Source: a virus. From it: a DNA stretch of 22,707 nucleotides. The stretch spans positions 1 to 22,707 of IMG/VR virus record IMGVR_UViG_3300048840_000041. One strand, given 5' to 3'. The translations under genes and the position numbers were made by a program. Shown piece by piece: positions 244-15,332 of the stretch (the stretch's first letter is position 1; each line of letters starts with the position of its first letter). The notes beneath the pieces were generated by a model that worked only from the letters and a program-made list of their open reading frames with translations, was not told where the DNA came from and did no database searches.

Positions 244-246
244 TGG

Positions 247-784: not shown

Positions 785-804
785 ACATAATCCCACTTAA
801 TTCT

Positions 805-828: not shown

Positions 829-906
829 AGCCTGTCGAATATCGGCTAGGTGTGATATGTGTCTGTAGGGGAAACTATTGCGTAGGAGTGGATTGTGTGA
901 TAAATA

Positions 907-965: not shown

Positions 966-975
966 AGGAGAGAGA

Positions 976-2901
976 TTACGGCCTTGAATGTGCTGTACGT
1001 GCCATTATAAAGGTGATCGGATTATCAAGTTGCGAGTTGCTGAACTTGCGTTTATACCTGCCCTGAACATCGGTAGCTACAGTTCTTGGATACGCCTGCC
1101 ATGCCACAACTGGTACAGATACGATAATGTTATTGTCCGTTGCCAGTGTTTTGATATTAACAGTCCCATCAATATCATAATCGTCATCTATTATTGGCGT
1201 ATTGCCTGTAGCAGTGTACGCAAGGTGACATACTCTGTTCTGCGTGCCGTCCCTGTCTTCAGTACTCGCGTATACGCTGCATGTGTAATCAGTGCCGTCA
1301 TTCGTGACATTCAGGAATACATCACCGATAGAATCACAGCTAGTGTTCAGGCTCCAATTATCCGTCAATGACCAACTAGAAGAATAGAAGATATTGCCGC
1401 CGTCATTTGCTATGTATGACGATGTGCCAGGAAACAGTTTCAACTGCTCTACTCGTGATGCTGTTGCGAAATCTATACCGAAGAATATCATTGACTTACC
1501 ATCATTATCAATATAGGCCCTGTCTTCTGCCGCGCCCGTATACAACATAGGATTTTTACTGAACAACCCATTTGATGTCGGATTAGGTATATTGTTCATG
1601 GCTGTAGGATTAGTGCGGCTCCACTTCCCTGTCCATGTGTAATCATACGTCATAGGGGATGCTTGCAGTTTGAAAGTACCATCATCAGTTCCGTCATCCT
1701 GATACTTGTACAGCTTGTTCATATTCGTGCCTACGGTAGTATCACGTATGACATAATACAGTTCGTCCGTGTCTGAATCGTAGCGCATAACTCCACTGCT
1801 ATTCATAGTGGCTGTATCAAATACTTCCATTACATTACCGTCATATCGCCATGCTTTTTTCTTTGCGCTTGACGGCATCCATAGATACTTTTCTGTCGGC
1901 ACAAATCCATCAGGCTGTCCGTCAGATATTGTCCAATCAAATACACTCCCATCCTCTTTGTATAGCGCCCATGCTAGAGGATTAGTTATCGCATAAGATA
2001 GCTGAAATAACGAGTATGCGTTACCTTTCCATAAGGCTGCATTCTGTATGTTGAGTATGTATTTGGTAGCTACTGGTTCTGTCCAATTTCCAACCTCAAA
2101 TATATTCCGGTACTTCCATTTGTTTTGAGCTAGTCGCTCTAATATCGCCGTATAACTTCGATTCTTGCTGCCAGTTCCATCTATGCTTATTGGCAGATTC
2201 ACCCACATTAGAGCTAGCCCATCCTGGCCTATGTTCTTATCTACATGTACGTCATACGCAACATTAGGGCCGTCAAATACCCAAGTAGCATCTTCACCGC
2301 CGGGCTTGCTATTAGGTATCCACCAGTCTCTCGTGACGGCATCCTTAGTGCCATACCGTCCGTCCCACTTCAATATCATACTCCAGGCATTTGCAGGCAG
2401 TGGTGTATCCCAATCTATTACAGTACCATCCCATTGGCTGCCTGACCAATTGTAGTATTTGGTACTGCCGTCAACCCCGTCATAGCCGAAGTTACCCCAC
2501 ACCCACAACTTATCATCATTGAACTGGCTGCAATCTATCATGCCAGCAGCAGCGGAATCATCGTATGTCAGGCACTTGTACTTGATGTATTCGTTGTGTG
2601 ATTTGGAGAAGCTTTCAACTTCTATATTGTGATTGTCAGAAATCCCTAGTGTAGCTTTTAGCTGCCAGAAATCGCCAGGAGTAGCGTTATCTATCTTAAT
2701 ACCAACTAGTGAACTACCATCATGCCCGATAGTAATTATGTCATTCACTCGTGGCTCTGTTGCCCTGGCGTGTGTCTGTGCGTTACCGTCATAACCTGAG
2801 TAGGAGAACTGCCCTGCTATCGGATGCGTAGATGCTAACGCCGATAGATTGTTATCGGAGTCAACTTGCAACCACACAAAATCACCGTTTGATATGCCCA
2901 T
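976..2901 (-). CDS. Large tail-tip or tail-fibre protein, Trp/Asp/Gly-rich
   Basis: This 641-residue protein is rich in Trp, Tyr, Asp, Asn and Gly and looks beta-structured throughout, with no membrane segment or signal peptide. Short WxxDG and YDG elements recur irregularly (for example SQWDGT, LKWDGR, WRYDGN), as in beta-propeller or fibre-like host-contact proteins. I count 7 Asp-Gly-Thr and 3 Asp-Gly-Ser, among 20 Asp-Gly pairs in all. It is the last gene of the tail operon; its ATG overlaps the upstream stop as TAATG, implying coupled translation. Position after the tail hub suggests a tip or receptor-binding role, but no enzyme motif or known receptor-binding family can be seen. Function is inferred from position only. 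Confidence 0.75.
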   Translation of the reverse strand: MGISNGDFVWLQVDSDNNLSALASTHPIAGQFSYSGYDGNAQTHARATEPRVNDIITIGHDGSSLVGIKIDNATPGDFWQLKATLGISDNHNIEVESFSKSHNEYIKYKCLTYDDSAAAGMIDCSQFNDDKLWVWGNFGYDGVDGSTKYYNWSGSQWDGTVIDWDTPLPANAWSMILKWDGRYGTKDAVTRDWWIPNSKPGGEDATWVFDGPNVAYDVHVDKNIGQDGLALMWVNLPISIDGTGSKNRSYTAILERLAQNKWKYRNIFEVGNWTEPVATKYILNIQNAALWKGNAYSLFQLSYAITNPLAWALYKEDGSVFDWTISDGQPDGFVPTEKYLWMPSSAKKKAWRYDGNVMEVFDTATMNSSGVMRYDSDTDELYYVIRDTTVGTNMNKLYKYQDDGTDDGTFKLQASPMTYDYTWTGKWSRTNPTAMNNIPNPTSNGLFSKNPMLYTGAAEDRAYIDNDGKSMIFFGIDFATASRVEQLKLFPGTSSYIANDGGNIFYSSSWSLTDNWSLNTSCDSIGDVFLNVTNDGTDYTCSVYASTEDRDGTQNRVCHLAYTATGNTPIIDDDYDIDGTVNIKTLATDNNIIVSVPVVAWQAYPRTVATDVQGRYKRKFSNSQLDNPITFIMARTAHSRP

Positions 2902-3554
2902 TATACTTTCGCATATTTCACTGTGAACTGAGTACCGTCCTCTACGCTAGAGCCATCAGCATTGATATGTACTAATTTAACATTAAGCAATCCCGATGCG
3001 CTGGATTTCTGCTTAACCTTAGCTATACGTCCTATGTATGGATGATTCGATTCATGTGTGTATATCCCATGACTGCCATCTATCCTGGCATGACACACAA
3101 ACGGCCCAGGCGCTTTCACTAGCTTCTGTGTTCCCTCAAGGTATCCGTAGTTTCTGCCAACTAGAGGATTCAGTGCCTTAGTTCCATCCAGTAACATAGG
3201 CTTGCCCACTGCACACATAACGCTCATCTCTGTGCCGTCTGTGCTACCATCACCCGCCGCTATAGAATAGCCGCTGATGTTAATCCAAACCAGATGGCCC
3301 ACCCTATCAAGTACATGCGTGCTGCCCTCTAAGCTGCCCTCTGGATAGTATGTACCGTCTGAACCAACAGAACCGTCAAAGAAAGCAGTTGAGTTTATGT
3401 TACGTACTGGCCTGAGTAGCAACCTAGTTCCATCCCATGCAGGAGAACTACCATCAGCACCGTCATTAGGTACACATACGCCGCCGTTATTGATAGAGCC
3501 ATCACCAACGTTCTTAGCTTTCCAGATACTGAAGTTTACGTCTAGCCCTGGCAT
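2901..3554 (-). CDS. Tail-tip accessory protein with the densest Asp-Gly-Ser/Thr content
   Basis: This 217-residue beta-rich protein carries 5 Asp-Gly-Thr and 6 Asp-Gly-Ser, about one per 20 residues, plus related Glu-Gly-Ser and Glu-Gly-Thr. Both serine codon families encode them: TCT in NVGDGS and NADGS, AGC or AGT in AGDGST and GADGSS. The last third (SNHPYIGRIAKVKQKSSASG, about residues 165-185) looks like an ordinary folded beta segment. It is linked by TAATG overlaps to the hub-like protein before it and the large tip protein after it, so the three are probably made together. I do not recognise the family; a tip or baseplate-like accessory is inferred from position. Confidence 0.75.
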   Translation of the reverse strand: MPGLDVNFSIWKAKNVGDGSINNGGVCVPNDGADGSSPAWDGTRLLLRPVRNINSTAFFDGSVGSDGTYYPEGSLEGSTHVLDRVGHLVWINISGYSIAAGDGSTDGTEMSVMCAVGKPMLLDGTKALNPLVGRNYGYLEGTQKLVKAPGPFVCHARIDGSHGIYTHESNHPYIGRIAKVKQKSSASGLLNVKLVHINADGSSVEDGTQFTVKYAKV

Positions 3555-5386
3555 TATGCTTCCCCATCGAATATTCTGGCCTCTGGTGGCGTGTGGTATC
3601 CAGTCTTCATACGCGCCTTGCGAGTCTGGTACGCTGTCCTATCTCTCAGTATATTAAGCCGTGCATGTTGTGATAAAGTTGACAAGTCAGTTTCTATTCC
3701 CCATGCAACTAGCGTCTGCGGTATCTCATTAGCGCCCATGCTGAATTTTACTTGTGAAATCTTGCCGTCTGGCTTCCACTGCCTCTTGATTCCAGGATAC
3801 ACATACACCACCGGATTGCCAGTAGTGCCGTCTGATCCGTCCCAGAATTGGCGCTCTCTCTCTCTGGCAGCACTCAGGCACTTCTTGTTCCATTCTGCCG
3901 TACCGTCTGCCCTGTCTAAATCTAGCCGCTTGACTATATCAACTACGTTTGTTTTTCCCTTAGCAAGCCCTTGACGATTCTTCCAGGTGTAGGTATATAC
4001 TCTGCTGTAGTTGCTAGGAGATACACCGATATTAGCTCGAATCTTCAGGCTCCTGGCCGTCTGCATTTTGCCACTACTTGAGAACTGCACAACAGGCATT
4101 CCAAACTTCACTAGCCCTAGTTGTTTGTCAATCTGAAATGATGCCTCAACTCTGTGCTGTGCGCCTGTGTTGTTGCTGTTCTTAACCATGAACTCTGAGT
4201 CTGCTACTCTGTGCGGCCCGATTACATACGGCCTGCGCTTCATCTCCATTCCGTCTACTTTTATGGACTCTTTCAAGAATGGATTCCAGCGCCTAATATA
4301 GTCTGCTCTTGTTCCGTCCTCTTCATTGCTATCATCACCACCAGTCAGTAGTTTGATTGATTCAGGTAGCCGATACCATCTGCACCATGAATCAGAGAAT
4401 GCTTTTGCTGCTTTAAGTTTAGTCGTGCCGTCTGCTAGATTCTGTGCGCTTGCGCCAGGTACTAATAGCTTTTCAGCCTCCATCTTCAGCCGGTTGCCGG
4501 TTGACTCGTTAAACCCGCCCTTGTCCTTATCGAAGTAACTGACTGAGCTACCATCTACATCGTTATCTTCATACAGAGTACCATCAGTATCAAGTATAAC
4601 TGGTGTCAATGCAAACGTACCATCAACGTTGTTGCTGGTTACTACATAGATGCTCTTAGGTGGATCAATGACGCGTTTGGTAACGACCTTAGACAGATAG
4701 TCCGTGTCCTGCTGTGTGCCATCAGTAACGCCAATAGGCCACACATCTATGGTGCCGTCATAATCCAGTGTGATACGTAGCCCGTACTCACCCAGGATGT
4801 TCATCATATGCTCACCGGGATACTCACCAATAGCCTCTATGTATGGCCGAGCGAACGTTGTACCATCTCCATAAGTGCCATCGTCTTTAGGCTTAGGAAA
4901 TGGCGCACGCAGATTCAATATCTTAGTAGTGCCGTCTATGCTCATTGCTGACGCTAGCGCTCTAACAAGTTGATTAAGCGGCATAGTGCGCCCGGTAACA
5001 TCCGTACCGTCTGATGTCATAGGCCACAGATTGCCCTTGTCATCTCTGACATTGCGCTCAATTATCAGTCCGTCATGTTTATTCCAGACCCATCTTCCAT
5101 CACGTATCTGCACCTGTGCGTCATGGCTGGATGTGTCTGAGGTAGGCACCACTTGAGTGAGTCGGCAATTAGAGATTACCAGTGGTGTGTTCTGGCCGTC
5201 ATCGAATGTGACTGAACCATCTTCAGGCACTAACTCAGTATCGCTAGCCGCAATATTCATAAATATCAAGCCAGGATCTATACCGTCCGTGACAGTATAG
5301 CTACCGGATATGCCGCGCACTACTAGCACACTTCCATCTGATTCTCTGGTGCCTTCAAATTGCAGGAATGCCGTACCGTCTGCCAT
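3554..5386 (-). CDS. Tail hub-like / minor tail protein
   Basis: This protein of about 610 residues probably contributes the central tail hub or tip. It follows the tape measure and distal tail gene, where hub proteins are found. A segment near residues 90-110 (RDGRWVWNKHDGLIIERNV) and the following LVRALASAM helix match the layout I know from hub-like minor tail proteins (an R-x-W-x-W strand, then a short domain selecting a helical pair). I count 13 Asp-Gly-Thr and 4 Asp-Gly-Ser, spread over the whole length. The start at 5386 is preferred because GGGG lies about 8 nt upstream and it follows the previous TAG by 2 nt. A start at 5416 would add ten residues inside the upstream gene. No peptidase or lysozyme motif is visible. 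Confidence 0.65.
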   Translation of the reverse strand: MADGTAFLQFEGTRESDGSVLVVRGISGSYTVTDGIDPGLIFMNIAASDTELVPEDGSVTFDDGQNTPLVISNCRLTQVVPTSDTSSHDAQVQIRDGRWVWNKHDGLIIERNVRDDKGNLWPMTSDGTDVTGRTMPLNQLVRALASAMSIDGTTKILNLRAPFPKPKDDGTYGDGTTFARPYIEAIGEYPGEHMMNILGEYGLRITLDYDGTIDVWPIGVTDGTQQDTDYLSKVVTKRVIDPPKSIYVVTSNNVDGTFALTPVILDTDGTLYEDNDVDGSSVSYFDKDKGGFNESTGNRLKMEAEKLLVPGASAQNLADGTTKLKAAKAFSDSWCRWYRLPESIKLLTGGDDSNEEDGTRADYIRRWNPFLKESIKVDGMEMKRRPYVIGPHRVADSEFMVKNSNNTGAQHRVEASFQIDKQLGLVKFGMPVVQFSSSGKMQTARSLKIRANIGVSPSNYSRVYTYTWKNRQGLAKGKTNVVDIVKRLDLDRADGTAEWNKKCLSAARERERQFWDGSDGTTGNPVVYVYPGIKRQWKPDGKISQVKFSMGANEIPQTLVAWGIETDLSTLSQHARLNILRDRTAYQTRKARMKTGYHTPPEARIFDGEA

Positions 5387-5388
5387 TA

Positions 5389-6183
5389 CTATACCCCATA
5401 TGCCGAACCATCCCATACGCCAGGATATACATACGTGCCATCATTCATTGCTGATGTGCTGATGAATGAATAGTTCCATGTCGCCGCATATCCCTCATGC
5501 CGTAATACTGTACCATCAGGACTATAATGCTCAGTAGGACTAGTAGCACTGTACCTGTAATCCTCATTAATCAAACTCGTACCGTTAGGTGTTACAGCAA
5601 ATCCAGGAGCAACTACATAACTATTCTTGCCTACTGAACTGCCAGTCTGAGTCAGGTGGTAGTGCGTCTGGTCTGCCGTTCTAAATGACTGCGGTGCGCC
5701 GTTCACAACTACAGCATGTTGATAGATAGGTAACCCACCCCACATCTCAGTAGTCTCAGTCCATGCAGTTACAGCATCAGTACCATCAGGATCAACATCG
5801 TAGTCTGCTGTCACAGTGATAGAGTATGTTCTAACACCGTTGTCTGCAAACTCTGGCCCGTTGCCCGTAGGATATCCCGGCTCCGCTGTTACTTTCGTAC
5901 CTGTTTTAGTAGCTGATGATACTATCTCGAATGCCTTAGTTGAATTGTCAGGATACTTCAGAGTAAAATCCTGGCCGTCCTTTGCGAAAGCTGCCTCAAG
6001 ATTAGTTATAGCCGTGTTGAATGCTGTCTTATCCGCGCATATCAATTGCCCTGTTACGTTACAGGTTACCGTTCTGGTGCTTTTCTGTCCTCTGGCTGAA
6101 TAGTTCTGCGTCTTATCTATCGTTACTACTGGTTCGCCAGGAGTGAATGAGAACGTGCCGTAATGTAATACCATGCCTGCCAT
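5389..6183 (-). CDS. Distal tail-like structural protein
   Basis: This 264-residue beta-rich protein begins MAGMVLHYGTFSFTPGEPVV and sits directly after the tape measure gene, the normal place of the distal tail (Dit-like) or first minor tail protein. The N-terminal half (about residues 10-130) reads as alternating strands ending in TYSITVTADYDVD, typical of a tail-tube-like fold. The C-terminal half is Thr/Ser/Tyr-rich and may be a carbohydrate-binding or outer domain. It holds 3 Asp-Gly-Thr and 1 Asp-Gly-Ser, all in the C-terminal half. The start has GGGG about 8 nt upstream and lies one base from the tape measure stop. Assignment is by position and fold impression. Confidence 0.6.
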   Translation of the reverse strand: MAGMVLHYGTFSFTPGEPVVTIDKTQNYSARGQKSTRTVTCNVTGQLICADKTAFNTAITNLEAAFAKDGQDFTLKYPDNSTKAFEIVSSATKTGTKVTAEPGYPTGNGPEFADNGVRTYSITVTADYDVDPDGTDAVTAWTETTEMWGGLPIYQHAVVVNGAPQSFRTADQTHYHLTQTGSSVGKNSYVVAPGFAVTPNGTSLINEDYRYSATSPTEHYSPDGTVLRHEGYAATWNYSFISTSAMNDGTYVYPGVWDGSAYGV

Positions 6184-6184
6184 A

Positions 6185-7660
6185 TTATAACCCCGATGCT
6201 ACAGCTTCAGCGCCCTGTCGTTTCTTCAGTTCAACAGCAACATTATGCTTAACATTGTTCAGAGTCTTATCAACAGCAAATCCGAAAGCTTCCATTAAAT
6301 CATTCGATGTGGTAAGAGCTTTCTGCCTTGCGTCAAATGATCCTGTACCTTCCTTGAATCGTGGATCACTTCCCTGCTGCGATTCGCTATGCCTAGCAGC
6401 TCCTACTTTCTGAGCTTCTACTACGTTAGCCTGTGGATTATAGAATGAACCAAGCACACCTGATATACTAAGCGCATTACTTAGCTTCATTACTGGATGA
6501 TTCAGGATGTCATTCAGCGTATTTATCATTATCTTGAAACCGTCTATCATGTCAGTGAATGCACTAGTGATAGTATCAGCAACACCAGCAGCACCGCCAA
6601 GAGCGTCTATAGCCTTGCCGAGTTGTGGTATTACTTTCTGGCTTATGTCTATTCCAGCAACTTTGATAGCGTTCAATGTTCTCTCTACTGCTGCCGCTGG
6701 TCCTTCTTCCATGCGCCTGAAAGCTTCAGCCTGTGCGCCTGTGCTGTTTATGTTGTTCTGCTGAATGCGCGTAAATTCTTTGTTCTGTTTGCCAGCAAGA
6801 GCTAGTACAGCAGTAATAGCGCGTATGCTAGGAAATAGCTTTGATAGCGCCTCATTGCTGCCGCCTGTCTTTACCCTTATCTGGTCTATCCACTTAGCAA
6901 AACCCATAGCCTTAATGCTTGATCCGTCAAACGCTATACCTAAATTAGCTGCGGCTTTCTTCTGTGTATCTGATGCGCTTATCACCTGAGCAAATACATT
7001 CTTCAAAAAGGTAGTTGCGTTTACCTGTTTGATAGATCCTTTTGTCATCGTAGTAGTGGCTGCGAATAAATCCTCTAGCGATACTCCAAGTTGTGCCGCA
7101 AATGGTAGCACCTCGCCCATGCTGGCCGCTAGCTCTTCATATGTGGTCTTGCCGTCTTTGATTGACTGGAATACTATGTCGCCGATTCTACCGGCCTCAC
7201 TAGCCTCTAGCCCATAGGCATTGACAACACCAGTCAATAAGTCTACCGCTTCTACCGTCTGAGCTACACCAGCAATAGCGCCTTTGTTAGCAATGTTCAA
7301 GAACTCCATTGCTTCAGCAGCAGGAATACCAGCAGACAATACTTGCCGCAATCCTTCAGCAAGCTCTAACGGTGCCTTGCCGGTATCTATTGCCATAGCC
7401 TTTAGTTGCTTGTCGAACGTACCCATGATATCCACGTTTTCGCCGAGCATCGTGGATACTTCACGCATCTTCTTTTCAAATCCTAGCGCCTCTCGTGTAC
7501 CAAGAGCGATACCGCCAGCTATAGCAATCCCGAACATCTTGCCAAATCTAGCCGCTTTAGATACAGCATTATCTAGGCTTTTGTTAATGCTGTTCATGGT
7601 ACGCTTTAGGCCAGGACTAGCCTTAGCACCGATTCTGATTAGTAGATTGCGTTCAGCCAT
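6185..7660 (-). CDS. Tail tape measure protein (TP901 core type)
   Basis: This protein of about 491 residues sets tail length and is threaded through the tail tube. Residues about 60-300 show the TP901-type tape measure core: FEKKMREVSTMLGEN, helical KAPLELAEGLRQVLSAG, VEAVDLLTGVVNAYG, then TYEELAASMGEVLPFAAQLG. A hydrophobic glycine-rich stretch (GIAIAGGIALG) lies near residue 45. The usual scaling of about 0.15 nm per residue would give a tail of roughly 70-75 nm, which is short. The ATG at 7660 with GGGG upstream is preferred over a TTG four codons earlier. It overlaps the end of the gpT frame by 8 nt. Only one Asp-Gly-Ser occurs, in contrast to the genes downstream. Confidence 0.88.
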   Translation of the reverse strand: MAERNLLIRIGAKASPGLKRTMNSINKSLDNAVSKAARFGKMFGIAIAGGIALGTREALGFEKKMREVSTMLGENVDIMGTFDKQLKAMAIDTGKAPLELAEGLRQVLSAGIPAAEAMEFLNIANKGAIAGVAQTVEAVDLLTGVVNAYGLEASEAGRIGDIVFQSIKDGKTTYEELAASMGEVLPFAAQLGVSLEDLFAATTTMTKGSIKQVNATTFLKNVFAQVISASDTQKKAAANLGIAFDGSSIKAMGFAKWIDQIRVKTGGSNEALSKLFPSIRAITAVLALAGKQNKEFTRIQQNNINSTGAQAEAFRRMEEGPAAAVERTLNAIKVAGIDISQKVIPQLGKAIDALGGAAGVADTITSAFTDMIDGFKIMINTLNDILNHPVMKLSNALSISGVLGSFYNPQANVVEAQKVGAARHSESQQGSDPRFKEGTGSFDARQKALTTSNDLMEAFGFAVDKTLNNVKHNVAVELKKRQGAEAVASGL

Positions 7661-8332
7661 GAATTGCCCCAAGGATGTCTGATAGGTGTTTAGTAATCAC
7701 CAGTGAATCAATACGTGTGTTCTGTGCGTCTAACAGTAAACAGTCTTGCAAGAAACCTACATCATTCTTGTCATCTTCGGATAGTCCGAACATATGCGCC
7801 AGCCGATAGCGATTGTATCTTTCCTCTTGTTCTGGCAGCCATTGGCAAGACTTGTAACACTCACCACAGTTAGGCTCTAGTCCGTTAGGCCAAGGAAATG
7901 TCTTACCGCCTTTTTCCACAAGCGTGCCGTCTGTCTCGTGCCAGTACTGCTTGCAGAACTCGCAGTCTTTTTCTTCAACCTCTGGATATAGTCGATGGAC
8001 GTAAAGCCCATTAGTTAGTTTTTTTCCGCTTGTGCCTCTTGGAATATCTCAATGAATATAGCAGTTACAGCGCTTATTTCCAGGCTGTCAAGTCCGTCTT
8101 TGTTGCACTCCACTTCAAGCGCCCACTTGACTACATGAGCAGCTACAAAGTCAAACATATCACCGAACTTAAACGCCAACCCTTCGTCCTTGCCAATATC
8201 ATCCCGGTACTTCTCAGCCAGTTCAGATACGGCTCTACCACCTGGAACTCTGTACGTAATCTCGAAAGAGTCAAAACCTTCTACCTCGATTGTCGCAGTT
8301 CTTTCGCCCAATTTCTTAACTACTGATCCCAT
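7653..8332 (-). CDS. Tail assembly chaperone gpGT, made by -1 frameshift
   Basis: The first 105 codons (8332-8018) are gpG; a -1 slip on A AAA AAC (8024-8018) continues reading from CTA at 8018 for 121 more codons to 7653, giving about 226 residues. In lambda-like phages a small fraction of ribosomes makes this fusion, which brings tape measure and tail tube together and is absent from the virion. The T part has four cysteines in the pattern CEFC...CGEC plus a further Cys (about 20-50 residues into T), possibly a zinc-binding knuckle, and one Asp-Gly-Thr. A GTG at 7919 could in principle start a separate protein, but that would leave the 99 nt upstream of it open in the same frame without explanation. 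Confidence 0.82.
8015..8332 (-). CDS. Tail assembly chaperone gpG-like
   Basis: This 105-residue acidic protein lies between the tail tube and tape measure genes, as lambda gpG does. It begins with strands (TATIEVEGFDSFEITYRVPG, residues 13-32) and continues as helices with a KDGLDSLEISAVTAIFIEIF segment near residue 80-100, the layout usual in this family. It ends GAA AAA AAC TAA, so the stop lies directly after the slippery heptamer. GAAAGGG about 7 nt upstream of the ATG is a good ribosome site. The unshifted product is expected to be the abundant form. Confidence 0.82.
   Translation of the reverse strand: MGSVVKKLGERTATIEVEGFDSFEITYRVPGGRAVSELAEKYRDDIGKDEGLAFKFGDMFDFVAAHVVKWALEVECNKDGLDSLEISAVTAIFIEIFQEAQAEKN
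8018..8024 (-). promoter_or_regulatory. Programmed -1 frameshift site A AAA AAC
   Basis: The heptamer is in the correct phase (GAA AAA AAC TAA in the gpG frame), sits one codon before the gpG stop, and opens into a frame of 121 codons with no stop. A run of seven A makes slippage likely. I did not find a strong stem-loop immediately downstream by eye; lambda-type sites often lack one. Confidence 0.82.
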
Positions 8333-8349
8333 TTTACAGCCCTTTCATA

Positions 8350-9231
8350 TTAAGTCTTTGCAATAGAAATCTCGTCACCACTTGACGGCTTATATGCCTT
8401 GTACTCCAATGAATAATCTACTTCTCCATCACTACCGATTGACGGTGTAGGGCTAGTCAGCGCTACCTCAGTCATCGTATGCGTGAATGTAGTAGCCCCA
8501 TCAGTCAGCACCACCTTGAACTGCACATCTGTAGCTGAATTGAGCTTGCTATACAAATCAGTCCAGTTATCACTATTCAAGTCAAGGTCCACTGAACCCT
8601 TGCATTCAAACGTGCCGCCTGCTGTGCTGCTTCTTGTAATGCTGTTGTGGAATCGCTCCGCTTTGTTCTCAGTGCATTCGATTGTGAATCCCTTGGCAAA
8701 GTACTCTGAGAACGTGCCATCGTCGTCAGACGAGAAGCTGAGTGTCGAATCGCTCATTATCATAGGACTAGCCTGAGTAACAGCCGCTACCGCACCGCTG
8801 GATGCCTCAGTAGTGCCTAGACACTCCATCTCTACCTGAACAGGATTGTTCTCGCTGCATGAAATCCTGAACGTGTTGCAGGTGCTTGCGGCATAGGTGA
8901 ATATTTTGCTGTTATCTCTGTCTATGACTATCGTGAATTGCTTGCCGTTGGTATCATCCGCTGGTGTCCATGTGCTTGACGATCCGTCAAAGAAGCAGTC
9001 AAGTAGCTTCTCATACTCAGCATAGCTTGGATGAAATGTCAGCGTGCCGGAAATATCCTTTTTCATCACAGTCAACCGGCCCAGTTGCGGATGCCTGCTG
9101 GCAATCATAGCCGCGCCTGGTTCGTTAAACTCTGGCTTGCTGCTGAAATCCTCACTAACTGCTGTTACTACGTTGCCGTTCATCTTGACGGCACAATCAT
9201 GTCCGAACGTCATACCTTTACTCTTAGCCAT
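8350..9231 (-). CDS. Major tail tube protein
   Basis: This 293-residue protein polymerises into the tail tube. It has the beta-sandwich style of lambda gpV-like tube proteins: an N-terminal DCAVKMNGNVVTAVSEDF strand pair, the substitution-tolerant middle, and a closing strand set with GEVDYSLEYKAYKPSSG near the C-terminus. It is longer than the usual 150-250 residues, possibly with an extra surface domain. The ribosome site is very strong (AGGAG, 8 nt before ATG at 9231), as expected for one of the most abundant virion proteins. It lies just before the gpG/gpGT frameshift pair. One Asp-Gly-Thr and one Asp-Gly-Ser occur. Confidence 0.82.
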   Translation of the reverse strand: MAKSKGMTFGHDCAVKMNGNVVTAVSEDFSSKPEFNEPGAAMIASRHPQLGRLTVMKKDISGTLTFHPSYAEYEKLLDCFFDGSSSTWTPADDTNGKQFTIVIDRDNSKIFTYAASTCNTFRISCSENNPVQVEMECLGTTEASSGAVAAVTQASPMIMSDSTLSFSSDDDGTFSEYFAKGFTIECTENKAERFHNSITRSSTAGGTFECKGSVDLDLNSDNWTDLYSKLNSATDVQFKVVLTDGATTFTHTMTEVALTSPTPSIGSDGEVDYSLEYKAYKPSSGDEISIAKT

Positions 9232-9242
9232 TTCATCATCTC

Positions 9243-10082
9243 CTAGCTAGTTACTGAATATGTACCATCAGCCGTCAGTGAATAAGTCAATTGTGCCGTG
9301 GCTTCGTTAGCGCTTCTTAGTTCTCGTGCAAGAAATACCAGGTTAATCGGCGATAGAAATAGATGCTGCTCTTCAATCGCTCTGCTGTCAAATGTCTCTG
9401 AGTCGCCTACATCACTGCACCATACATCAGTAAGAGTTGTCAGCCTATGTCCTGAGAATAGCCGTATCAATTGCCGCCTCATCATCAGTTCATTAGCTCC
9501 ACGTAGTCCTGTAGTTCTCTCGCAGATATAGCAAGTAACGTTGTAGGTGAATGTGTCCACCTGTGACATCTGATTATCTGGATTGTTGCTGCCTGGAAAT
9601 ACCTTGATAATCGTGGTGTCTACATCGTCAAAGTTTGGCGGCCATTCCTTTTCAGCCGTCACCAGCGTGCCGTCATAGTTAGTCAGGCTGGCGTCATTAA
9701 TCATCGACACTACAGCGTCAAGTATCCTGTCCAGGAGTGTACTGGTGCCTACTGTGGCATACCCCCTAATGCCGCCGTTGCATGATGTATTGCCGTCACT
9801 GTTTAAGCTCTCAACCTTAAACCAGTATGAGCCTGCATCTATATTAAACGATCCTGTACCATCGCTTACTCTTGAATCGCCGGTCAACCAATTTCCAGTA
9901 GGTGATGACCTATATTTGATTGTGTTAGTTGTACCGGCTGTTGATCCTGTAATCGCGTAATTCACGCCGCTTGTAGCGTTCGCCAAGTCAGTGATAGTAA
10001 ATGCTGGCACTGCTGGTATTGCTCCAGTGCTAGCGCTGCCTGTCAGTAGTCCGAAGCTAGATAACGCTCTAAGGTCACCCAT
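9243..10082 (-). CDS. Tail terminator-like protein with an N-terminal Ig/FN3-like domain
   Basis: Two parts are visible in 279 residues. Residues about 20-110 read as an Ig- or FN3-like module: PAVPAFTITDLANATSGVNY, a TNTIKYRSSPTGNWL strand pair, then AGSYWFKVESLNSDGNTS. Residues about 115-265 resemble tail terminator or minor tail (gpU-like) proteins: a helix LLDRILDAVVSMINDA, a strand FTYNVTCYICER, a helix NELMMRRQLIRLFSGHR. Position directly before the tail tube gene fits a terminator. The TAATG overlap at 10082 couples it to the upstream gene. An Ig-like module fused in front of a terminator is uncommon; such modules usually decorate the virion surface. Domain names are from pattern recognition only. 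Confidence 0.6.
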   Translation of the reverse strand: MGDLRALSSFGLLTGSASTGAIPAVPAFTITDLANATSGVNYAITGSTAGTTNTIKYRSSPTGNWLTGDSRVSDGTGSFNIDAGSYWFKVESLNSDGNTSCNGGIRGYATVGTSTLLDRILDAVVSMINDASLTNYDGTLVTAEKEWPPNFDDVDTTIIKVFPGSNNPDNQMSQVDTFTYNVTCYICERTTGLRGANELMMRRQLIRLFSGHRLTTLTDVWCSDVGDSETFDSRAIEEQHLFLSPINLVFLARELRSANEATAQLTYSLTADGTYSVTS

Positions 10083-10681
10083 TAGCTTACCGTCCTAGTG
10101 CCTGTGGTTCCAGGTAGTGCCGCTGTCCACAGAGCCGTACCATCAATGTTGTTGAATGTAAGATTGGTACCGTCACCACTAACAGCGTTGACAAGAGCCG
10201 CATGTACTTTCGTGGCGTGTTCTTCGTATGTCTCAGTACCGTCAAATGTGTCTGTAGCAGGAGCGTAGGTAGAGAATCCAGTTGCTTTATACTGGCTGAA
10301 TCCACTCACTGTAGTGCCGTCATTCTTGGTTACGTTTGCATTGGTGCCGTCTGTGAATCTGTTCTCTATACTGAACTCTGCAATAGTAGCATTCACAGCA
10401 GCGCTATCTATAGTGCCGTCCTCTAGGATTACTTGGTAGTCTGATCCAGTAGAATAGAATGCGCTTGATCCTGCCTTTATGGTGCAGTGGTGAACTCCGA
10501 CAATGCCGTTGAAGTCCTTGCTGTCAGTTACGCCTGCATTAGTGCCGTCAGTGCCATCGTCTTTATAGACGTTAATAGTTCCATCAGTAGAACGAGTTAC
10601 AGAAGCGCCATTGCTATCAACCGTGTTCCAGGAGAAATACAGTGTGCCGTCTTCTGCTAAATCGCCTCTATATATGCCCAT
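10082..10681 (-). CDS. Phage appendage protein with an upper-baseplate/fibre-type N-terminal domain
   Basis: This 199-residue protein starts MGIYRGDLAEDGTLYFSWNT, a form I associate with small beta-sandwich phage proteins of the YRGD(I/L)AED...SVYKDN...FSIENRF type found near tail or fibre genes. The family landmarks VYKDDGT (about 39), GVTDSKDF (about 50), GVHHCTI and FSIENRF (about 108) are all present. It has 10 Asp-Gly-Thr, one per 20 residues. At family-conserved places the length seems unchanged: the usual KDNSTTQSTAGVT (from memory) is here KDDGTDGTNAGVT, so the motif replaces residues rather than being inserted. TAATG overlaps link it to both neighbours. Surface appendage is the best guess. 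Confidence 0.65.
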   Translation of the reverse strand: MGIYRGDLAEDGTLYFSWNTVDSNGASVTRSTDGTINVYKDDGTDGTNAGVTDSKDFNGIVGVHHCTIKAGSSAFYSTGSDYQVILEDGTIDSAAVNATIAEFSIENRFTDGTNANVTKNDGTTVSGFSQYKATGFSTYAPATDTFDGTETYEEHATKVHAALVNAVSGDGTNLTFNNIDGTALWTAALPGTTGTRTVS

Positions 10682-11616
10682 TATTGAACCTTTCCGTAGA
10701 ACTTACTATTTCCGCCACTAGCAGCAGCACCAAATGAAATCCCCTCGCTACATCCTATGCTTGGTGGATTAGCTCGTGTCTGTCCGTCTATGTCTAGAGT
10801 AATACCGCCCACAGCAACACCCTGGCCGACCAGAGCCGAGCTAGTGTGTATGCGCCAGTCCAGCGGGAAGAAGTCGTTGGCGTTGTCTAGCATGGGCTTT
10901 ATGTTTGCATCAGTTTCGTTTATTCTGTTGTTCGCGCCAGTGGACCAATTACCATCACCGGCAGTCGCGTCACCTGTAGAGTTGTTGTAGCCAGTCGCGC
11001 TCGCAATGGCAAAAACTCCAGCCGTTTGGTTCTGTACGCAAAGATTATTGCTTGCCGTACTCGCACCAAAAAGTAGAATTCCAAACCCGGTAGATACGCA
11101 TGTATTGAAATACGCCTCTATTGCCACATAAGCCCATATTGATACATACTGTCCAACGCAATGACAGTTTGAAATCTTGAACGCCCCATCTCCGGCTTGA
11201 AAAGTAATAGCTGATCCGCCGGTATAAAATCTACATCTGTCAATATGTATTCCTGCTCCGCCTCCTGTTGTGTCGTTCCACAACACCGCAGGGTTAGAGG
11301 AGTAGCTCAAGAATGTGATATTCTGTACCACAAGTTGCGTGGATATTCCTGACAGGTTCCCGCTAAAGCTGAGATGTGAATAGTTCCCCCCACTCGCTTG
11401 AGATATCGTCACCTGATTACTTGGGAGCATTCCTTCCAGTGAGAACCCTGCCGTTCCAGCAAAACGCTCAAACCAGAAACGTCTTTTGCTGGCATTGGAG
11501 TAGTACATTTGGATGTTGTTTGATCCGTCTACTCCGGCTGCCGTTATCGCAGTTGCAAGCGTTGTATACGTCTTTGCTGTTCCTGCCGCATCATACCCAC
11601 AAGAAATGTTAGCCAT
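10681..11616 (-). CDS. Right-handed beta-helix appendage protein
   Basis: This 311-residue protein reads as a parallel beta-helix or pectin-lyase-like fold: short repeating rungs with stacked Asn, Ile, Val and Cys, such as VVQNITFLSYSSN, IHIDRCRFYTGG, KISNCHCVGQY, EAYFNTCVSTGFGILLFG and NNLCVQNQT. It ends with a PLDWRIHTSSALVGQG segment, a form common at the end of such beta-helix proteins in phages and bacteria. Tail spikes and depolymerases use this fold, but I see no clear catalytic residues. It has only one Asp-Gly-Ser although it is beta-rich, which sets it apart from its neighbours and hints at a later-acquired host-range module. Overlaps by TAATG with the gene upstream and downstream. 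Confidence 0.72.
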   Translation of the reverse strand: MANISCGYDAAGTAKTYTTLATAITAAGVDGSNNIQMYYSNASKRRFWFERFAGTAGFSLEGMLPSNQVTISQASGGNYSHLSFSGNLSGISTQLVVQNITFLSYSSNPAVLWNDTTGGGAGIHIDRCRFYTGGSAITFQAGDGAFKISNCHCVGQYVSIWAYVAIEAYFNTCVSTGFGILLFGASTASNNLCVQNQTAGVFAIASATGYNNSTGDATAGDGNWSTGANNRINETDANIKPMLDNANDFFPLDWRIHTSSALVGQGVAVGGITLDIDGQTRANPPSIGCSEGISFGAAASGGNSKFYGKVQ

Positions 11617-12084: not shown

Positions 12085-12145
12085 TCATCAGGTAACCTAT
12101 GACAATTAACAGCAGTCCGAAGAATAGCACCACAATAAGCTGCAT
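12068..12145 (-). CDS. 25-residue single-span membrane peptide
   Basis: It reads MQLIVVLFFGLLLIVIGYLM plus a short basic tail NGKRL. The first 20 residues form one hydrophobic membrane span with a positive C-terminal end. Its ATG overlaps the stop of the preceding gene as TAATG. Within a lysis-type block it could help holin function or be a small regulator of lysis; this is an inference from position. Such a short frame could be chance, but the clean hydrophobic span and the overlap at both ends argue for a real gene. Confidence 0.5.
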   Translation of the reverse strand: MQLIVVLFFGLLLIVIGYLMNGKRL

Positions 12146-12366
12146 TATTTCGGCTTGCTGGTGCTTATTAGATACATGTGTAAGTCACGCACATTGTCGT
12201 CAATTCTGCGAAGCGTCACGGCTTGCGATTCCTGCCGCTTCTCGATTGCAACAACCCTATCTATACTTGCGGAGTTGTACGTAGCGTGTGTAGCAATACC
12301 AGCAAGGCACATCAGCAACAGTCCTACTATAATCTGCTTCATCATTACGCTATCCCTAGTTGTCAT
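12145..12366 (-). CDS. Small membrane-anchored coiled-coil protein (inner-spanin-like)
   Basis: The 73-residue reading has one N-terminal membrane segment (IIVGLLLMCLAGIATHA, about residues 12-28) followed by a charged helix (ASIDRVVAIEKRQESQAVTL, then RRIDDNVRDLHMYLI). This is the shape of an inner-membrane spanin: an anchor plus a periplasmic coiled coil. The ATG at 12366 overlaps the lipoprotein stop as ATGA; an ATG seven codons later (12345) has AGGGAT upstream and is an alternative start. Spanins act with an outer-membrane lipoprotein to fuse the two membranes at lysis, and the gene just upstream is a lipoprotein. It is shorter than most inner spanins, so the role is tentative. Confidence 0.6.
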   Translation of the reverse strand: MTTRDSVMMKQIIVGLLLMCLAGIATHATYNSASIDRVVAIEKRQESQAVTLRRIDDNVRDLHMYLISTSKPK

Positions 12367-12584
12367 TTGCTTGCTCCACCATCAGATAGGCAGTACCAGC
12401 CCTCTTTGAGTGTCAACTTTCCTGCTACTGGTTTGCCGTTGCTATCCTTTACCCATATCTTCACATTAGGCACATCCTGGCGCAACCTCACAGGAGTACC
12501 ATCAGGCACATAAAGAGTGCGTATAAAACAGCCGCTACTTGCTAGCGCTAATACTATCACGCAAACGCTTTTCAAGACTGCCAT
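12363..12584 (-). CDS. Small phage lipoprotein (possible outer spanin)
   Basis: The start at 12584 is chosen because AAGAGG lies 9 nt upstream. It gives a 73-residue protein with a compact signal peptide MAVLKSVCVIVLALASSGC and a lipobox ending at Cys19. The mature part, about 55 residues, runs TLYVPDGTPVRLRQDVPNVK followed by WVKDSNGKPVAG and a EGWY strand near the end. I remember this VPDGTPVRLR...VWVKD...EGWY form as a recurring small phage lipoprotein of unproved function. It would be anchored in the outer membrane. It overlaps the 49-residue gene by 50 nt and the next gene by ATGA. Outer-spanin role is inferred from context. Confidence 0.7.
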   Translation of the reverse strand: MAVLKSVCVIVLALASSGCFIRTLYVPDGTPVRLRQDVPNVKIWVKDSNGKPVAGKLTLKEGWYCLSDGGASK

Positions 12585-12684
12585 CACGTTGAGCCTCTTC
12601 ACAGGTATCATTCGCCTTTTCGATTATTACAGGTATCAGCGCTTGCAGTAGTAGCTTAACAATAGCCAATATTACCTGTATCAT
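12535..12684 (-). CDS. 49-residue membrane peptide overlapping the lipoprotein gene
   Basis: The peptide starts MIQVILAIVKLLLQALIPVI, a hydrophobic N-terminal helix, and ends in a highly charged tail (EKANDTCEEAQRDGSLEKRL and a short rest). The ATG at 12684 overlaps the holin-like gene stop as ATGA. Its last 50 nt are shared with the start of the lipoprotein gene in another frame. I recall similar short peptides next to the same lipoprotein type in other phages. It could be a holin partner, antiholin or spanin component; the sequence does not decide. It contains one Asp-Gly-Ser. Confidence 0.65.
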   Translation of the reverse strand: MIQVILAIVKLLLQALIPVIIEKANDTCEEAQRDGSLEKRLRDSISASK

Positions 12685-12950
12685 TTCTCTGCACCTACTT
12701 TTACGCTTGTTCTGCTGTTGATATAGCCGAGCTTCACAACAGTTTCCTTGAACAGTGCCAGCCCCGCCACTACAGCGCCTACGATAATGCCAGTAGTTGC
12801 CTCAGTGCCAAGTGCTTGAGCTACCGAGCTGCCGATAGTAATCAGCAATCCGATAATCTGCACAACAAGCGCCCAACGTCCTGAACCTTGCGCCTCTTTG
12901 TATTCAGTGGTATCTACTCCGGGCTTCATTGGATCTTCTTTAGCTGCCAT
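12681..12950 (-). CDS. Holin-like protein with two membrane segments
   Basis: This 89-residue protein has a polar N-terminus of about 25 residues, a first membrane segment WALVVQIIGLLITIGSSVAQ (about 26-46), a second TGIIVGAVVAGLALF (about 53-67) and a basic C-terminal tail. This matches the size and layout of class II-type holins, which make holes in the inner membrane at lysis. It heads a block of small membrane and lipoprotein genes, which supports the role. GGGAG lies about 8 nt before the ATG. No endolysin gene is visible in the window, so the cell-wall enzyme must be encoded elsewhere. Confidence 0.68.
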   Translation of the reverse strand: MAAKEDPMKPGVDTTEYKEAQGSGRWALVVQIIGLLITIGSSVAQALGTEATTGIIVGAVVAGLALFKETVVKLGYINSRTSVKVGAEK

Positions 12951-12961
12951 GTCTTTTCTCC

Positions 12962-13534
12962 CTATTTGTTAGTATGCTCGTACCATTCCATAGCCAAACT
13001 TGTAGGCTTGGCTGAACCAGCAATATTAGATACCTGGAGCAGTACAATCTGATTCTGCTCCATTATCCATTCGTCACGCACCTCAGCACCACCACCACTA
13101 GCGTTGCCACCTGTGCCACCTGGAACAATCTTACAGTCTAAAACAGTTCCATCGTCTGTCACGGTTACACCAGTCTTTACTGTTACGGTTGAGGCAGTTG
13201 CGCTATTCATGTTTTTGTTTATTGGAGTGAATGAAGAACCGCCACTAGTTGTAGGATTCTTGGTAAGCCTCACAACAGCATTGCCACCACAAGAGGCATC
13301 CCATATCATGTGCCCCCACTTAGTAGTGTTAGGAGTAGTAACCATAATATTAAGAGTACCATCATCAGCTAGTAACTGGTCGCAAACTGGAACCTTAAAT
13401 GTAGAGCCTGCGTGTATTTCATGGTGCGCATAGTCTACCGTATTAGTAGCGTTTGTGGTTGAGTCTAGTGTTGGCGTTTTGCCGTTAGTATCAACCGGCA
13501 TTATGATTTCTTTACCGTTGATAGTAGTAGTCAT
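12962..13534 (-). CDS. Phage structural protein of the conserved WYEHT C-terminal type
   Basis: The protein has 190 residues. The stretch DYAHHEIHAGSTFKV (about residues 34-48), the middle SSFTPINKNMNSATASTVTV with a long Thr-rich strand, the RDEWIMEQNQIVLLQVSN strand and the C-terminal MEWYEHT match a family I know from siphophages (EIHEG...SG...TPIN-N-R-S...LL--T---YLF--TN...W-EHT). Members lie in late regions and are believed to be virion proteins, possibly capsid decoration; the exact role is not established. Two Asp-Gly-Thr occur. TAATG overlap with the gene upstream. It closes the head module just before the holin-like gene. Confidence 0.65.
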   Translation of the reverse strand: MTTTINGKEIIMPVDTNGKTPTLDSTTNATNTVDYAHHEIHAGSTFKVPVCDQLLADDGTLNIMVTTPNTTKWGHMIWDASCGGNAVVRLTKNPTTSGGSSFTPINKNMNSATASTVTVKTGVTVTDDGTVLDCKIVPGGTGGNASGGGAEVRDEWIMEQNQIVLLQVSNIAGSAKPTSLAMEWYEHTNK

Positions 13535-13917
13535 TAGAATAATGTCCTGTAAGCGATTTCAAGGCCCCAATTAAGTCCACCAGCATTTTGGAAGCTACCA
13601 TCTAAATCTGATTCTGCTTTCAGTGGAAACGGTTTTGTAGGTGTCCATGTGTTGTCTGCTATGCCGCTCATATCCTGAGTGTGAACTACAACATCATAGC
13701 TAGTACCGTCTGATGAATTCTCTTTAAGAAAGAAGTTCTGCGAAGTTGCGCTAGTACCGTCTAGGTGTAACTTAGCGCTGATAACCTCTACCTTGATTAG
13801 CTTTGTCGCGCTTCTACCTGTTGCACCAAGGATTGTATTAAGGCTAGTTTGTAGTGCAGTACCACCACCTTTAGCCTGTGCGAATTGAACCGCTGAATAT
13901 GGATAATCAGTTGACAT
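13534..13917 (-). CDS. Hypothetical beta-rich structural protein, 127 residues
   Basis: After a short helix (TALQTSLNTILGATG, about 19-33) the protein is all strands: KLIKVEVISAKLHLDGTSAT, YDVVVHTQDMSG, WTPTKPFPLKAES, then GGLNWGLEIAYRTLF at the C-terminus. This is the style of small decoration proteins or fibre-base domains that occur in pairs with the WYEHT protein that follows. A very strong ribosome site, GGAGG 8 nt before the ATG, suggests high output and hence a virion component. Two Asp-Gly-Thr and one Asp-Gly-Ser. No named family recognised. Confidence 0.62.
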   Translation of the reverse strand: MSTDYPYSAVQFAQAKGGGTALQTSLNTILGATGRSATKLIKVEVISAKLHLDGTSATSQNFFLKENSSDGTSYDVVVHTQDMSGIADNTWTPTKPFPLKAESDLDGSFQNAGGLNWGLEIAYRTLF

Positions 13918-13918
13918 T

Positions 13919-14428
13919 CTAAAAGCCTCCTTTGTCCAGTTCTTTCATTACTCTGTCAGCTAGTATGTTTACAATGTTCTTCATATCCATTCCGTTCAAT
14001 CCGAAATGCTCTCTAGCTGGTACGTCTTCAAATCCTTCTTGCTGTCTCTTAGCGCCTACCCAGACTGTGCCGGTTTGAAATGCTCTCCCGTTGTCGTATA
14101 CATCAATTATTCTACCCTTGCCTCTGGTAGATTGAGCCATGTGCCGAGCCAACTTACTTACCTTTGCGCGTTTCAGCGCTGGCTTGGATACTGTTCTCCT
14201 CGCTCTCTTGACATTCCGTCTACGTCTACCTCTTGCCGGTGCTGCTACTTTAGCCCTTTGCCACGGTTCGCCTGTGGGACTCATATGCAGTTGAAATCGT
14301 GTCTTCGTCTGCTTGTTAATGTATGAGTTGACTTGCCTCCATGGGTAGAACGTTCTGCCAGGGCTGGTTAATACTCGCATCCATTTCTTAGTCAGCCGTT
14401 GGAATTGCTGAGGAGTTAACTCAGCCAT
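13919..14428 (-). CDS. Phage virion morphogenesis / tail completion protein (gpG Mu / gpS P2-like)
   Basis: The 169-residue protein starts MAELTPQQFQRLTKKWMRVL. Landmarks of the virion morphogenesis family are visible: an N-terminal helical part, then RFQLHMSPTGEPWQRAK (about residues 40-56, the family's F---PDG-PW element), a highly basic middle (RGRRRRNVKRARR, 67-79), and near the end VPAREHFGLNGMDMKNIVNIL, matching the family's PAR-FLG--- helix. In Mu and P2 these proteins help finish or join the tail to the head. Here it lies in the head-tail connector block, coupled by TAATG to the gene before. It has no Asp-Gly-Thr. Confidence 0.75.
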   Translation of the reverse strand: MAELTPQQFQRLTKKWMRVLTSPGRTFYPWRQVNSYINKQTKTRFQLHMSPTGEPWQRAKVAAPARGRRRRNVKRARRTVSKPALKRAKVSKLARHMAQSTRGKGRIIDVYDNGRAFQTGTVWVGAKRQQEGFEDVPAREHFGLNGMDMKNIVNILADRVMKELDKGGF

Positions 14429-14778
14429 TAGATGTCAGCTTTCTGCATGGTGATATTATACATTGTCCCATCACCGTCTAGCTCATGGCTTACATAGTCG
14501 TAGTAGTCCGTTCCGTCTGTCAGAATATCCTTGCGCTTAGGCACTAATGCAGTTCCATCAGATACCAAATCACCAGCACGTATGAACCACATTGCGTCCA
14601 TGCTACGCACCCATACGCCTTGATCCTCATATTGGGCTTGCGTTCGATTCTTCGTTGCGTTTAGTGTTACTGTGCCGTCACCAAATGACCTATAGGATAC
14701 TGAGCTGCCCCATTGCAGAATACCAGTGCTGGCAATAATCGCACCATCCACAATACTGAGCAAGTCATTCCATGCCAT
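14428..14778 (-). CDS. Probable head-tail connector protein
   Basis: This 116-residue protein has an N-terminal helix (WNDLLSIVDGAIIASTG) and a beta part (SVSYRSFGDGTVTL, SMDAMWFIRAGDLV, DYYDYVSHELDGDGTMYNIT). The order, following capsid genes and preceding the tail completion protein, and the closing YYDYV...MYNITMQ strands suit a gpFII/gp7-like connector that caps the portal complex. Four Asp-Gly-Thr fall in predicted turns. The ATG at 14778 follows a hairpin in the intergenic gap. Family assignment is by position and size only. Confidence 0.55.
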   Translation of the reverse strand: MAWNDLLSIVDGAIIASTGILQWGSSVSYRSFGDGTVTLNATKNRTQAQYEDQGVWVRSMDAMWFIRAGDLVSDGTALVPKRKDILTDGTDYYDYVSHELDGDGTMYNITMQKADI

Positions 14779-14798
14779 AAGTCACCTATATATGTAGC

Positions 14799-14828
14799 TG
14801 GCCGGTTGCCATATGCGACAACCGGCCA
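14799..14828 (-). other. Perfect 10-bp hairpin between cement and connector genes
   Basis: TGGCCGGTTG (14799-14808) and CAACCGGCCA (14819-14828) form a perfect GC-rich stem with a 10-nt loop. Outer GTAGC (14794-14798) and GCTAC (14837-14841) can also pair. On the minus strand no U-run follows, so it is more likely a processing or stabilising element, or a weak terminator that lowers connector output relative to capsid, than a full terminator. Confidence 0.6.
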
Positions 14829-14837
14829 ATTACAAAG

Positions 14838-15332
14838 CTACGCATTATTCAGAATCTGGTTGTTTTCCAACGTGGTCAAAAGACTGTTGAACTTCGTCAC
14901 AAGGTCAGCAAGAGTTCCATCGCCGTTAGCAATGGTGTCAGAACGTCCGAGAACGTTCAGAAGCACTCTGCCAGTATCAACCGCTGTACCATCAGCATCT
15001 ACCGCACGGCCAAGAGGGTATCCGTTGGCTGGTGCCTGAGTAGTCGTGGTAGCAGCGCCGCCAGTCGTACCATCAACACCAGTACCGTCTTTATCCCAGA
15101 ACACTTGATCGCCAGCAGCAAAAGCGGTTGAGTCCTTACGAACCCAGAACACGCCAGATACATCACAGCCGCCTGCCTGCGTACCGTCTGAATCAACCGT
15201 CAAGCGGTTAATAACAACACCGGCACGCAAATCGCCAATCTGCACCACCGTACCGGCATTAACAGTTGCGGCAGGCGTATAGGTCATCGTAACGCCGTCT
15301 TTATCAGTTCTTGCTTGTGATCCAAGAGCCAT
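14838..15332 (-). CDS. DUF2190-type capsid cement / decoration protein
   Basis: The 164-residue protein lies right after the capsid gene, as DUF2190 proteins do. It has the family's features: MTYTPAATVNAGTVVQIGDL, RAGVVINRLTV, GVFWVRKDSTAFAAGDQVFW with WDKDG, then NGYPLGRAVDADGTAV and RVLLNVL. The C-terminal LADLVTKFNSLLTTLENNQI is an added helix that may make trimers. Such proteins are thought to cover capsid surfaces. GGAGG 9 nt before the ATG is consistent with high copy number. Five Asp-Gly-Thr, including KDGTGVDGT, lie in surface loops. Confidence 0.78.
   Translation of the reverse strand: MALGSQARTDKDGVTMTYTPAATVNAGTVVQIGDLRAGVVINRLTVDSDGTQAGGCDVSGVFWVRKDSTAFAAGDQVFWDKDGTGVDGTTGGAATTTTQAPANGYPLGRAVDADGTAVDTGRVLLNVLGRSDTIANGDGTLADLVTKFNSLLTTLENNQILNNA

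Follow-up and report, generated by a model that had tools for sequence, protein, structure and literature searches.

An Asp-Gly-Thr/Ser word repeated across the outer proteins of an uncultured tailed phage, a possible recognition motif for Thr/Ser modification

The virus record IMGVR_UViG_3300048840_000041, analysed here over its whole 22,707 bases (the window), encodes the head and tail proteins of a tailed phage in which Asp-Gly is followed by Thr or Ser (DGT or DGS, together DG[ST]) far more often than chance allows. We tentatively read this tripeptide as a word recognised by an enzyme that modifies Thr or Ser. The window holds 79 DG[ST], 59 DGT and 20 DGS, exactly as counted in a preliminary description of this DNA, and 75 of them fall in positions 976-15332. 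The 24 main open reading frames (ORFs) account for 57 DGT and 19 DGS (76 in all), and the others lie in short ORFs at 568-750, 12538-12684, and 20205-20417. Shuffling whole proteins gives 6.2-6.8 motifs for the 76 observed (Poisson P about 1e-51). Shuffling within blocks of 10-40 residues, which had been set beforehand as a possible refutation, gives 6.4-7.9, and the best of 300 shuffles reached 18; local amino acid composition is thereby ruled out as the cause. A dipeptide (first-order Markov) model, which already includes the signal, expects 39. At a density of 11.6 motifs per 1,000 residues, the proteins taken together are enriched 11- to 12-fold and the outer ones about 15-fold, so that the excess of roughly 20-fold first proposed was real but overestimated. 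When the tripeptides that occur four or more times are ranked, DGT has a z of 29 and DGS of 9, and the next in line 6.6.

The motifs are concentrated as the preliminary description had it, in tail-tip, appendage, and cement/connector proteins. Under a post hoc grouping of our own (outer, core, and small/other proteins, with three of the outer ones lacking a known role), 12 outer proteins (tail-tip, tube, connector, cement, appendage) hold 72 of the 79 motifs in 3,421 residues vs. 4.7 expected, and five core proteins hold three in 2,495 residues vs. 1.3 expected. The near-absence from portal, terminase, and tape measure that had been noted earlier was borne out: the large terminase (20623-22647) and the portal (17403-18854) have no DG[ST] and the tape measure (6185-7672; PF10145) has one DGS, and these three serve as internal negative controls. 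The product of the gene at 15376-17400 (674 residues), in which head protease and major capsid protein are fused, has only two, at residues 174 and 230.

The tail-tip block (976-6183) encodes tail-tip proteins of 264 residues (5389-6183, four DG[ST]) and 620 residues (3554-5416, 17), a 217-residue tail appendage protein (2901-3554) in which 11 motifs take 11 of the 14 Asp, and a 641-residue tail-tip/appendage protein (976-2901) with 10, including DDGTDDGT. The roles of the last two are assigned by position and no homologue was found for either. Two further appendage proteins, also named by position, have 199 residues (10082-10681; 10 DGT, including KDDGTDGTN) and 311 residues (10681-11616; one DGS). 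The tail tube (8350-9231; PF18906) has two DG[ST], and a minor tail protein (9243-10082) has three DGT, two of them outside a core at about residues 114-255. In the joining and neck gene block (13919-14778), the head-tail joining protein (14428-14778; PF25138) has four DGT. A 127-residue protein adjoining the neck genes (13534-13917) has three DG[ST], a phrog_5335-like protein with no assigned function (12962-13534) two DGT, and the capsid cement protein (14838-15332; PF09956, phiCD508 gp48-like) five DGT. All five tandem forms listed earlier are present (DDGTDGT, DDGTDDGT, KDGTGVDGT, DGSDGT, DGSTDGT), and motif spacings are irregular, from 3 to 137, with no dominant period.

The word itself is narrowly restricted. 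Thr or Ser follows DG in 76 of 115 cases, and every other xG pair in 69 of 455 (Fisher P 6e-26). EG[ST] is at chance (5 vs. 4.0 expected by shuffle), NG[ST] is nearly missing (1 vs. 5.3), and DG before any other residue is close to expectation (39 vs. 32), from which it appears that the word requires all three of its elements, carboxylate, Gly, and hydroxyl. The NG dipeptide occurs 27 times vs. 32 expected. Thr is used over Ser by 57 to 19, though the same proteins contain 539 Thr and 481 Ser. Trp is found at position +6 five times (1.3 expected), and flanking preferences are otherwise small, apart from two that we return to below. The signal lies at the level of protein rather than DNA, since the codons follow local usage and the reading frame is that of DGT. 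Codon choice for Asp, Thr, and Ser within the motifs matches that elsewhere in the same genes (P 0.98, 0.11, and 0.12), and the Gly codon is mildly skewed to GGT (33/76; P 0.018 within DGT-rich genes). The DNA word GAYGGNAC occurs 61 times on the minus strand; 57 copies are read as DGT in large genes, three lie outside those genes, and one is in another frame. The plus strand has a single copy.

The excess is not a property of the phage family. The 64 terminase relatives have observed/shuffled DG[ST] ratios of at most 4.3 (at a locus with four motifs) and a maximum of 11 motifs at any one locus. Summed over 158 portal-alignment relatives, DG[ST] occurs 385 times vs. 359 expected, and over 231 pooled relative loci 628 times vs. 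600 by dipeptide frequencies, a density of 0.63 per 1,000 residues, with 2.4 as the highest value. The relatives that turned up are distant, at no more than 34% for the terminase and 49% for the portal. The pooled loci consist of DNA flanking a matched head gene and often do not include the tail, and tail homologues were therefore sought separately. In phage-like stretches from genomes of one phylum, 15 homologues of the 620-residue tail-tip protein hold 0-3 DG[ST] each and nine altogether, where the window protein has 17. For the 264-residue protein, which has four, 16 such homologues hold none or one each. The 23 stretches with tail homologues, from 16 of the 17 matched genomes (G115 left out), hold 99 DG[ST] vs. 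74 by shuffle. Equal DGT density in homologues, which the preliminary description had named as a refutation, is thus not seen, and with these tail-tip homologues and the three sets of relatives above we reject a family property. As a separate observation, the tail-tip module formed by homologues of these two proteins is common to phage-like stretches in several genomes of that phylum (L486, L507, L509, L511, L514); the proteins tried from L486 and L511 gave no Pfam family at cut-off.

Homologous columns give the same picture site by site. We tallied 36 window sites in proteins with homologues, leaving out the proteins that start at 976, 2901, 8350, 10681, 12962, and 13534 (no homologue) and at 10082 (partial homologues only). 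Among 882 ungapped homologue cells, 86 read DG and seven DG[ST]; relatives thus often hold part of the word and rarely all of it. For the joining protein alone, 36 homologues show DG[ST] in three of 118 aligned cells. Site 278 of the 620-residue tail-tip protein aligns with DGx in 11 of 15 homologues, with x never Ser or Thr. At site 34 of the joining protein, the third column is Ser or Thr in 89% of homologues and the window adds the Asp and Gly before it. Several columns carry other turn residues (DGE, DGN, NGR, GGS), and LGADGSTS in the window stands beside LGADDQT in relatives. The 199-residue appendage protein reads TDGTNANVTKNDGTTVSG where its partial homologues have TETSIADVRKVTGSSVSG. 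The motif had been said to replace rather than lengthen conserved stretches. This holds for 23 of the 36 sites, which lie in columns at least half ungapped, and fails for the other 13, which lie in insertions or stretches of variable length. In the minor tail protein the first homologues align only to about residues 114-255, a core that we take to be terminator-like, and the extensions on both sides carry two of its three DGT.

For several proteins no relatives were found. With tblastn against phages at E limits from 1e-3 to 1, there was no match for the proteins at 10082-10681, 3554-5416, 5389-6183, 2901-3554, 976-2901, 12962-13534, and 12363-12611. Scans of viral contigs with those at 10082-10681, 15376-17400, and 3554-5416 gave no relative, which proves little because 15376-17400 gave none although its homologues exist. 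The protein at 10082-10681 also had no match in the 392 genomes searched from a planctomycete portal relative's phylum.

We also looked for the same habit elsewhere. IMG/VR was scanned twice for three clustered DGT, yielding at least 120 loci and at least 94 further ones. Counting proteins with at least two motifs and more than three times expectation, the window has 12, and none of the 94 loci or of the 352 loci L009-L360 has more than four, among the matches listed. Four loci with high DGT (L172, L144, L128, and L466) were rejected as second cases because repeat proteins account for their counts, and in L132, L166, and L422 the DGT is scattered and the excess mild. L172 is of interest in itself, since positions 2-6361 of this viral contig encode tandem paralogues with long Trp-Lys-x-Gly-Thr repeats (WKNGTWKDGTW). 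Among cellular genomes of the planctomycete relative's phylum, a DNA word for tandem DGTDGT is present in 78 of 294, with G261 and G001 highest. Twelve stretches of G261 contain 33 DG[ST] vs. about 18 by shuffle and eight stretches of G001 contain 13 vs. about 14 (L389 contributing no bases to these counts), so that these sampled genomes show at most a mild excess. Literature on DGT/DGS motifs, tripeptide enrichment in phage tails, isoaspartate, virion and planctomycete glycosylation, and DxDxDG describes no such word in the portions available.

Structural placement could be assessed for the cement protein, which was modelled with 39 relatives (mean predicted local distance difference test score, pLDDT, of 81). 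The model corresponds to the phiCD508 minor capsid protein (Foldseek match to 9gb0_C, E 7e-4; profile match to 9gay_C, E 1e-6). All five DGT are in loops of the model, some of them at lower confidence (68 and 55 in the blocks at about residues 41-50 and 131-140); since loop makes up some 57% of the chain by our count, this adds little. The protein has 164 residues and a predicted C-terminal helix at 141-158, and 29 of its 63 homologous ORFs have 104-148 residues and the rest at least 229. A single-sequence model of the 199-residue appendage protein had a pLDDT of 35 and was not used.

We read DG[ST] as an acceptor motif because the word needs a carboxylate, a Gly, and a hydroxyl, prefers Thr, mostly ignores its flanks, and spans many unrelated outer proteins. 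As a sequon would be, the motif is restricted and cannot do without its hydroxyl. That it serves as the target of a modifying enzyme was one of three meanings suggested earlier and fits best, with Thr over Ser at 3:1, although none of the window's proteins was recognised as such an enzyme. Our favoured interpretation, held at rather less than even confidence, is that DG[ST] is a recognition word for a Thr/Ser-modifying enzyme, with O-glycosylation as the obvious candidate. That the word is a new sequon, D-G-T/S, unlike each of the glycosylation motifs we tested and written about seventy times in nearly every outer protein so that one enzyme, phage- or host-borne, coats the particle, is a bolder statement and one that we offer more guardedly still. 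If the word is recognised in this way, the outer proteins would have converged on Asp-Gly-Thr/Ser site by site, through independent substitutions and insertions. The recogniser would be an enzyme acting on the Thr/Ser hydroxyl, encoded either by phage genes that lie beyond this fragment or by the probably planctomycete host, and loops of the tail tip, tube, neck, and cement protein would thereby be decorated.

Several observations weigh against modification by an enzyme. No second virus with the across-protein pattern appeared in the 231 relative loci or the 214 DGT-cluster loci among the matches listed. The joining protein is not obviously exposed, and it holds four motifs. The 17 small/other ORFs hold four in 1,336 residues vs. 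0.6 expected (P 0.003 under the post hoc grouping), an excess that counts against a purely virion-bound cause, and some of the motif-bearing small ORFs are unlikely to be virion components. Asp at -2 (12 vs. 5.4 expected) and Tyr at +4 (8 vs. 2.4) hint at a turn or hairpin context. The word is also not fully private to the window: of the seven homologue cells with DG[ST], one is in L519, the tail-homologue stretch richest in DG[ST] (13 vs. 5.3 expected), where one homologue has DGT at the same site, 74, of the minor tail protein. No protein-modifying family was found among the Pfam matches (20 proteins) or the PHROGs matches (20 proteins), weak sub-threshold matches aside, with three large proteins and the shortest ORFs outside the Pfam scan. 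The window is, however, a fragment that lacks most non-structural genes.

An alternative is that DG[ST] is a product of lineage-specific structural drift, in which this beta-turn became the preferred one wherever loops are unconstrained and nothing recognises it. Consistent with this, the sites lie in variable or inserted loops and in the columns where relatives show other turn residues, the small ORFs have a mild excess, and Tyr at +4 would suit a hairpin. Drift toward turns should, however, also raise NG[ST], DGN, and DGK, and the first is nearly missing while DG before other residues hardly exceeds expectation; in addition, relatives have no preference for Ser or Thr after DG. We consider this explanation doubtful but deserving of weight. 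The related suggestion in the preliminary description, of a turn that binds metal or sugar, is partly upheld in that the tested sites are loops or turns and 12 of 76 have the form DxDG[ST]; the need for a turn alone fails to predict the missing NG[ST] and the flat counts of other DG.

Alternatively, the motif could be a binding epitope, its many copies on exposed loops held weakly and polyvalently by a partner, which might be a metal ion, an adjacent virion, or a protein or glycan on the host surface. The specificity data fit an epitope as they fit a sequon, as does the loop position in the cement model. DxDG[ST] accounts for 12 of 76 sites vs. 0.5 expected and DxDxDG, the form of known Ca2+ loops, occurs three times vs. 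0.18 expected. At the same time, 64 of 76 sites have no Asp at -2, the RTX motif is absent, and the motifs in the neck protein and small ORFs are not obviously explained. We think a binding epitope unlikely.

The remaining explanations fare worse. An assembly artefact or altered sequence, i.e., a record that is not a faithful natural genome, might be suspected where a pattern is found in no other sequence and the relatives are distant. The main genes are open, though, and in the order expected for such phages, and the motifs use several codons, stand at variable positions, spare conserved cores, and in places lie near relatives' sequence (LGADGSTS/LGADDQT); we judge this improbable. The third meaning suggested earlier, sites placed on the virion so that Asp-Gly isomerises or is cleaved there, perhaps as a clock, draws on Asp-Gly being the classic labile pair, but that chemistry is indifferent to the third residue, and with other DG and NG both near expectation it has very little to recommend it. 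A DNA-level cause, i.e., an over-represented DNA word, targeted insertion, or conversion tract that happens to read DGT, has the slight GGT skew in its favour and is scarcely credible given background Asp, Thr, and Ser codons and the frame and strand of GAYGGNAC.

Every recognised gene of the record is on the minus strand, and an ORF runs off the left end, so that the record is probably a fragment. The terminase, portal, protease-capsid fusion, cement, joining, tube, and tape measure genes follow one another as the set of a tailed phage. Small ORFs with a single motif are a short and probably non-structural ORF (568-750, DGT), a small ORF that looks lipoprotein-like in sequence (12363-12611, DGT), another short ORF (12538-12684, DGS), and a short Cys-rich zinc-ribbon-like ORF beside the terminase (20205-20417, DGT), which presumably resembles the NrdR zinc ribbon. 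The host is likely a planctomycete: genome assemblies gave 448 confirmed portal relatives, of which 80 were kept, 65 of them with planctomycete titles. Homologues of the 264-residue tail-tip protein are found in 17 of the 392 genomes in the phylum of one planctomycete portal relative, and those of the 620-residue protein are found there too. These alone do not fix the host because the search for them was confined to that phylum. A human faecal phage, L193 (MT835660.1), matches the window in the tape measure only, at 30%. GATC is strongly depleted in the window (positions 1-22707), with 36 occurrences vs. 93.7 expected from trinucleotides (ratio 0.38), the lowest of the 16 palindromic tetramers. 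The median ratio in 89 relative loci longer than 15 kb is 0.95, and only L354 and L303 are below the window. This suggests avoidance of a GATC-cutting host.

If the sequon reading is correct, the sequence of a viral genome could by itself reveal a new protein-modification specificity, and the enzyme should be easy to assay since its acceptor peptide is known ahead of it. If the motif is instead a binding epitope, one short peptide is displayed virion-wide. Even structural drift would mean that a dozen unrelated proteins converged on one tripeptide while 231 relative loci stay at expectation, which is a striking preference at the scale of a proteome. Counts of the DG[ST] type across virus collections would find further cases.

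Among known systems, the N-glycosylation sequon, N-x-S/T, is similar in having a hydroxyl two residues past an acidic or amide residue and in favouring Thr over Ser, and differs in that the first residue is Asn there and Asp here. The window is not an N-glycosylation substrate, given N-x-S/T at 61 vs. 55.4 expected, D/E-x-N-x-S/T at 5 vs. 6.1, and the near-absence of NG[ST]. The Ca2+ loops of EF-hands and dockerins, DxDxDG, also place Asp-Gly in a loop, and the sites with Asp at -2 recall them; the many sites without it and the rarity of full DxDxDG speak against classical Ca2+-loop proteins. RTX or collagen-like repeat proteins were likewise rejected, as RTX motifs and a dominant period are lacking and G..G..G..G occurs twice vs. 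0.4 expected. Phage DGT repeat proteins, which we take to be collagen-like in L466, RCC1-like in L144, and GDGTET tails in L128, resemble the window in high DGT count per viral contig. There, one repeat protein or a few paralogues carry copied units, whereas here 12 proteins are involved without such units.

We know of no comparable tripeptide word in mycobacteriophages with putative glycosyltransferases. Capsid glycosylation has been suggested for such phages (PMC11256854), and they are similar to the window's phage in possibly decorating their own virion proteins; they differ in that no glycosyltransferase was recognised in this window. The general O-glycosylation motif of Bacteroidota, given as D(S/T)(A/I/L/V/M/T) (PMC8550257), likewise spans three residues, combines Asp with a Ser/Thr acceptor, and recurs over many proteins. 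It differs from DG[ST] in that Gly sits here between the Asp and the hydroxyl, and in that a glycan is here only presumed. The window is not a substrate of the Bacteroidota type, as that motif is below chance (18 vs. 27.9 by shuffle). To the extent that these sources cover such motifs, DG[ST] is possibly a new word, based on one uncultured genome and akin to the three-residue motifs of O-glycosylation.

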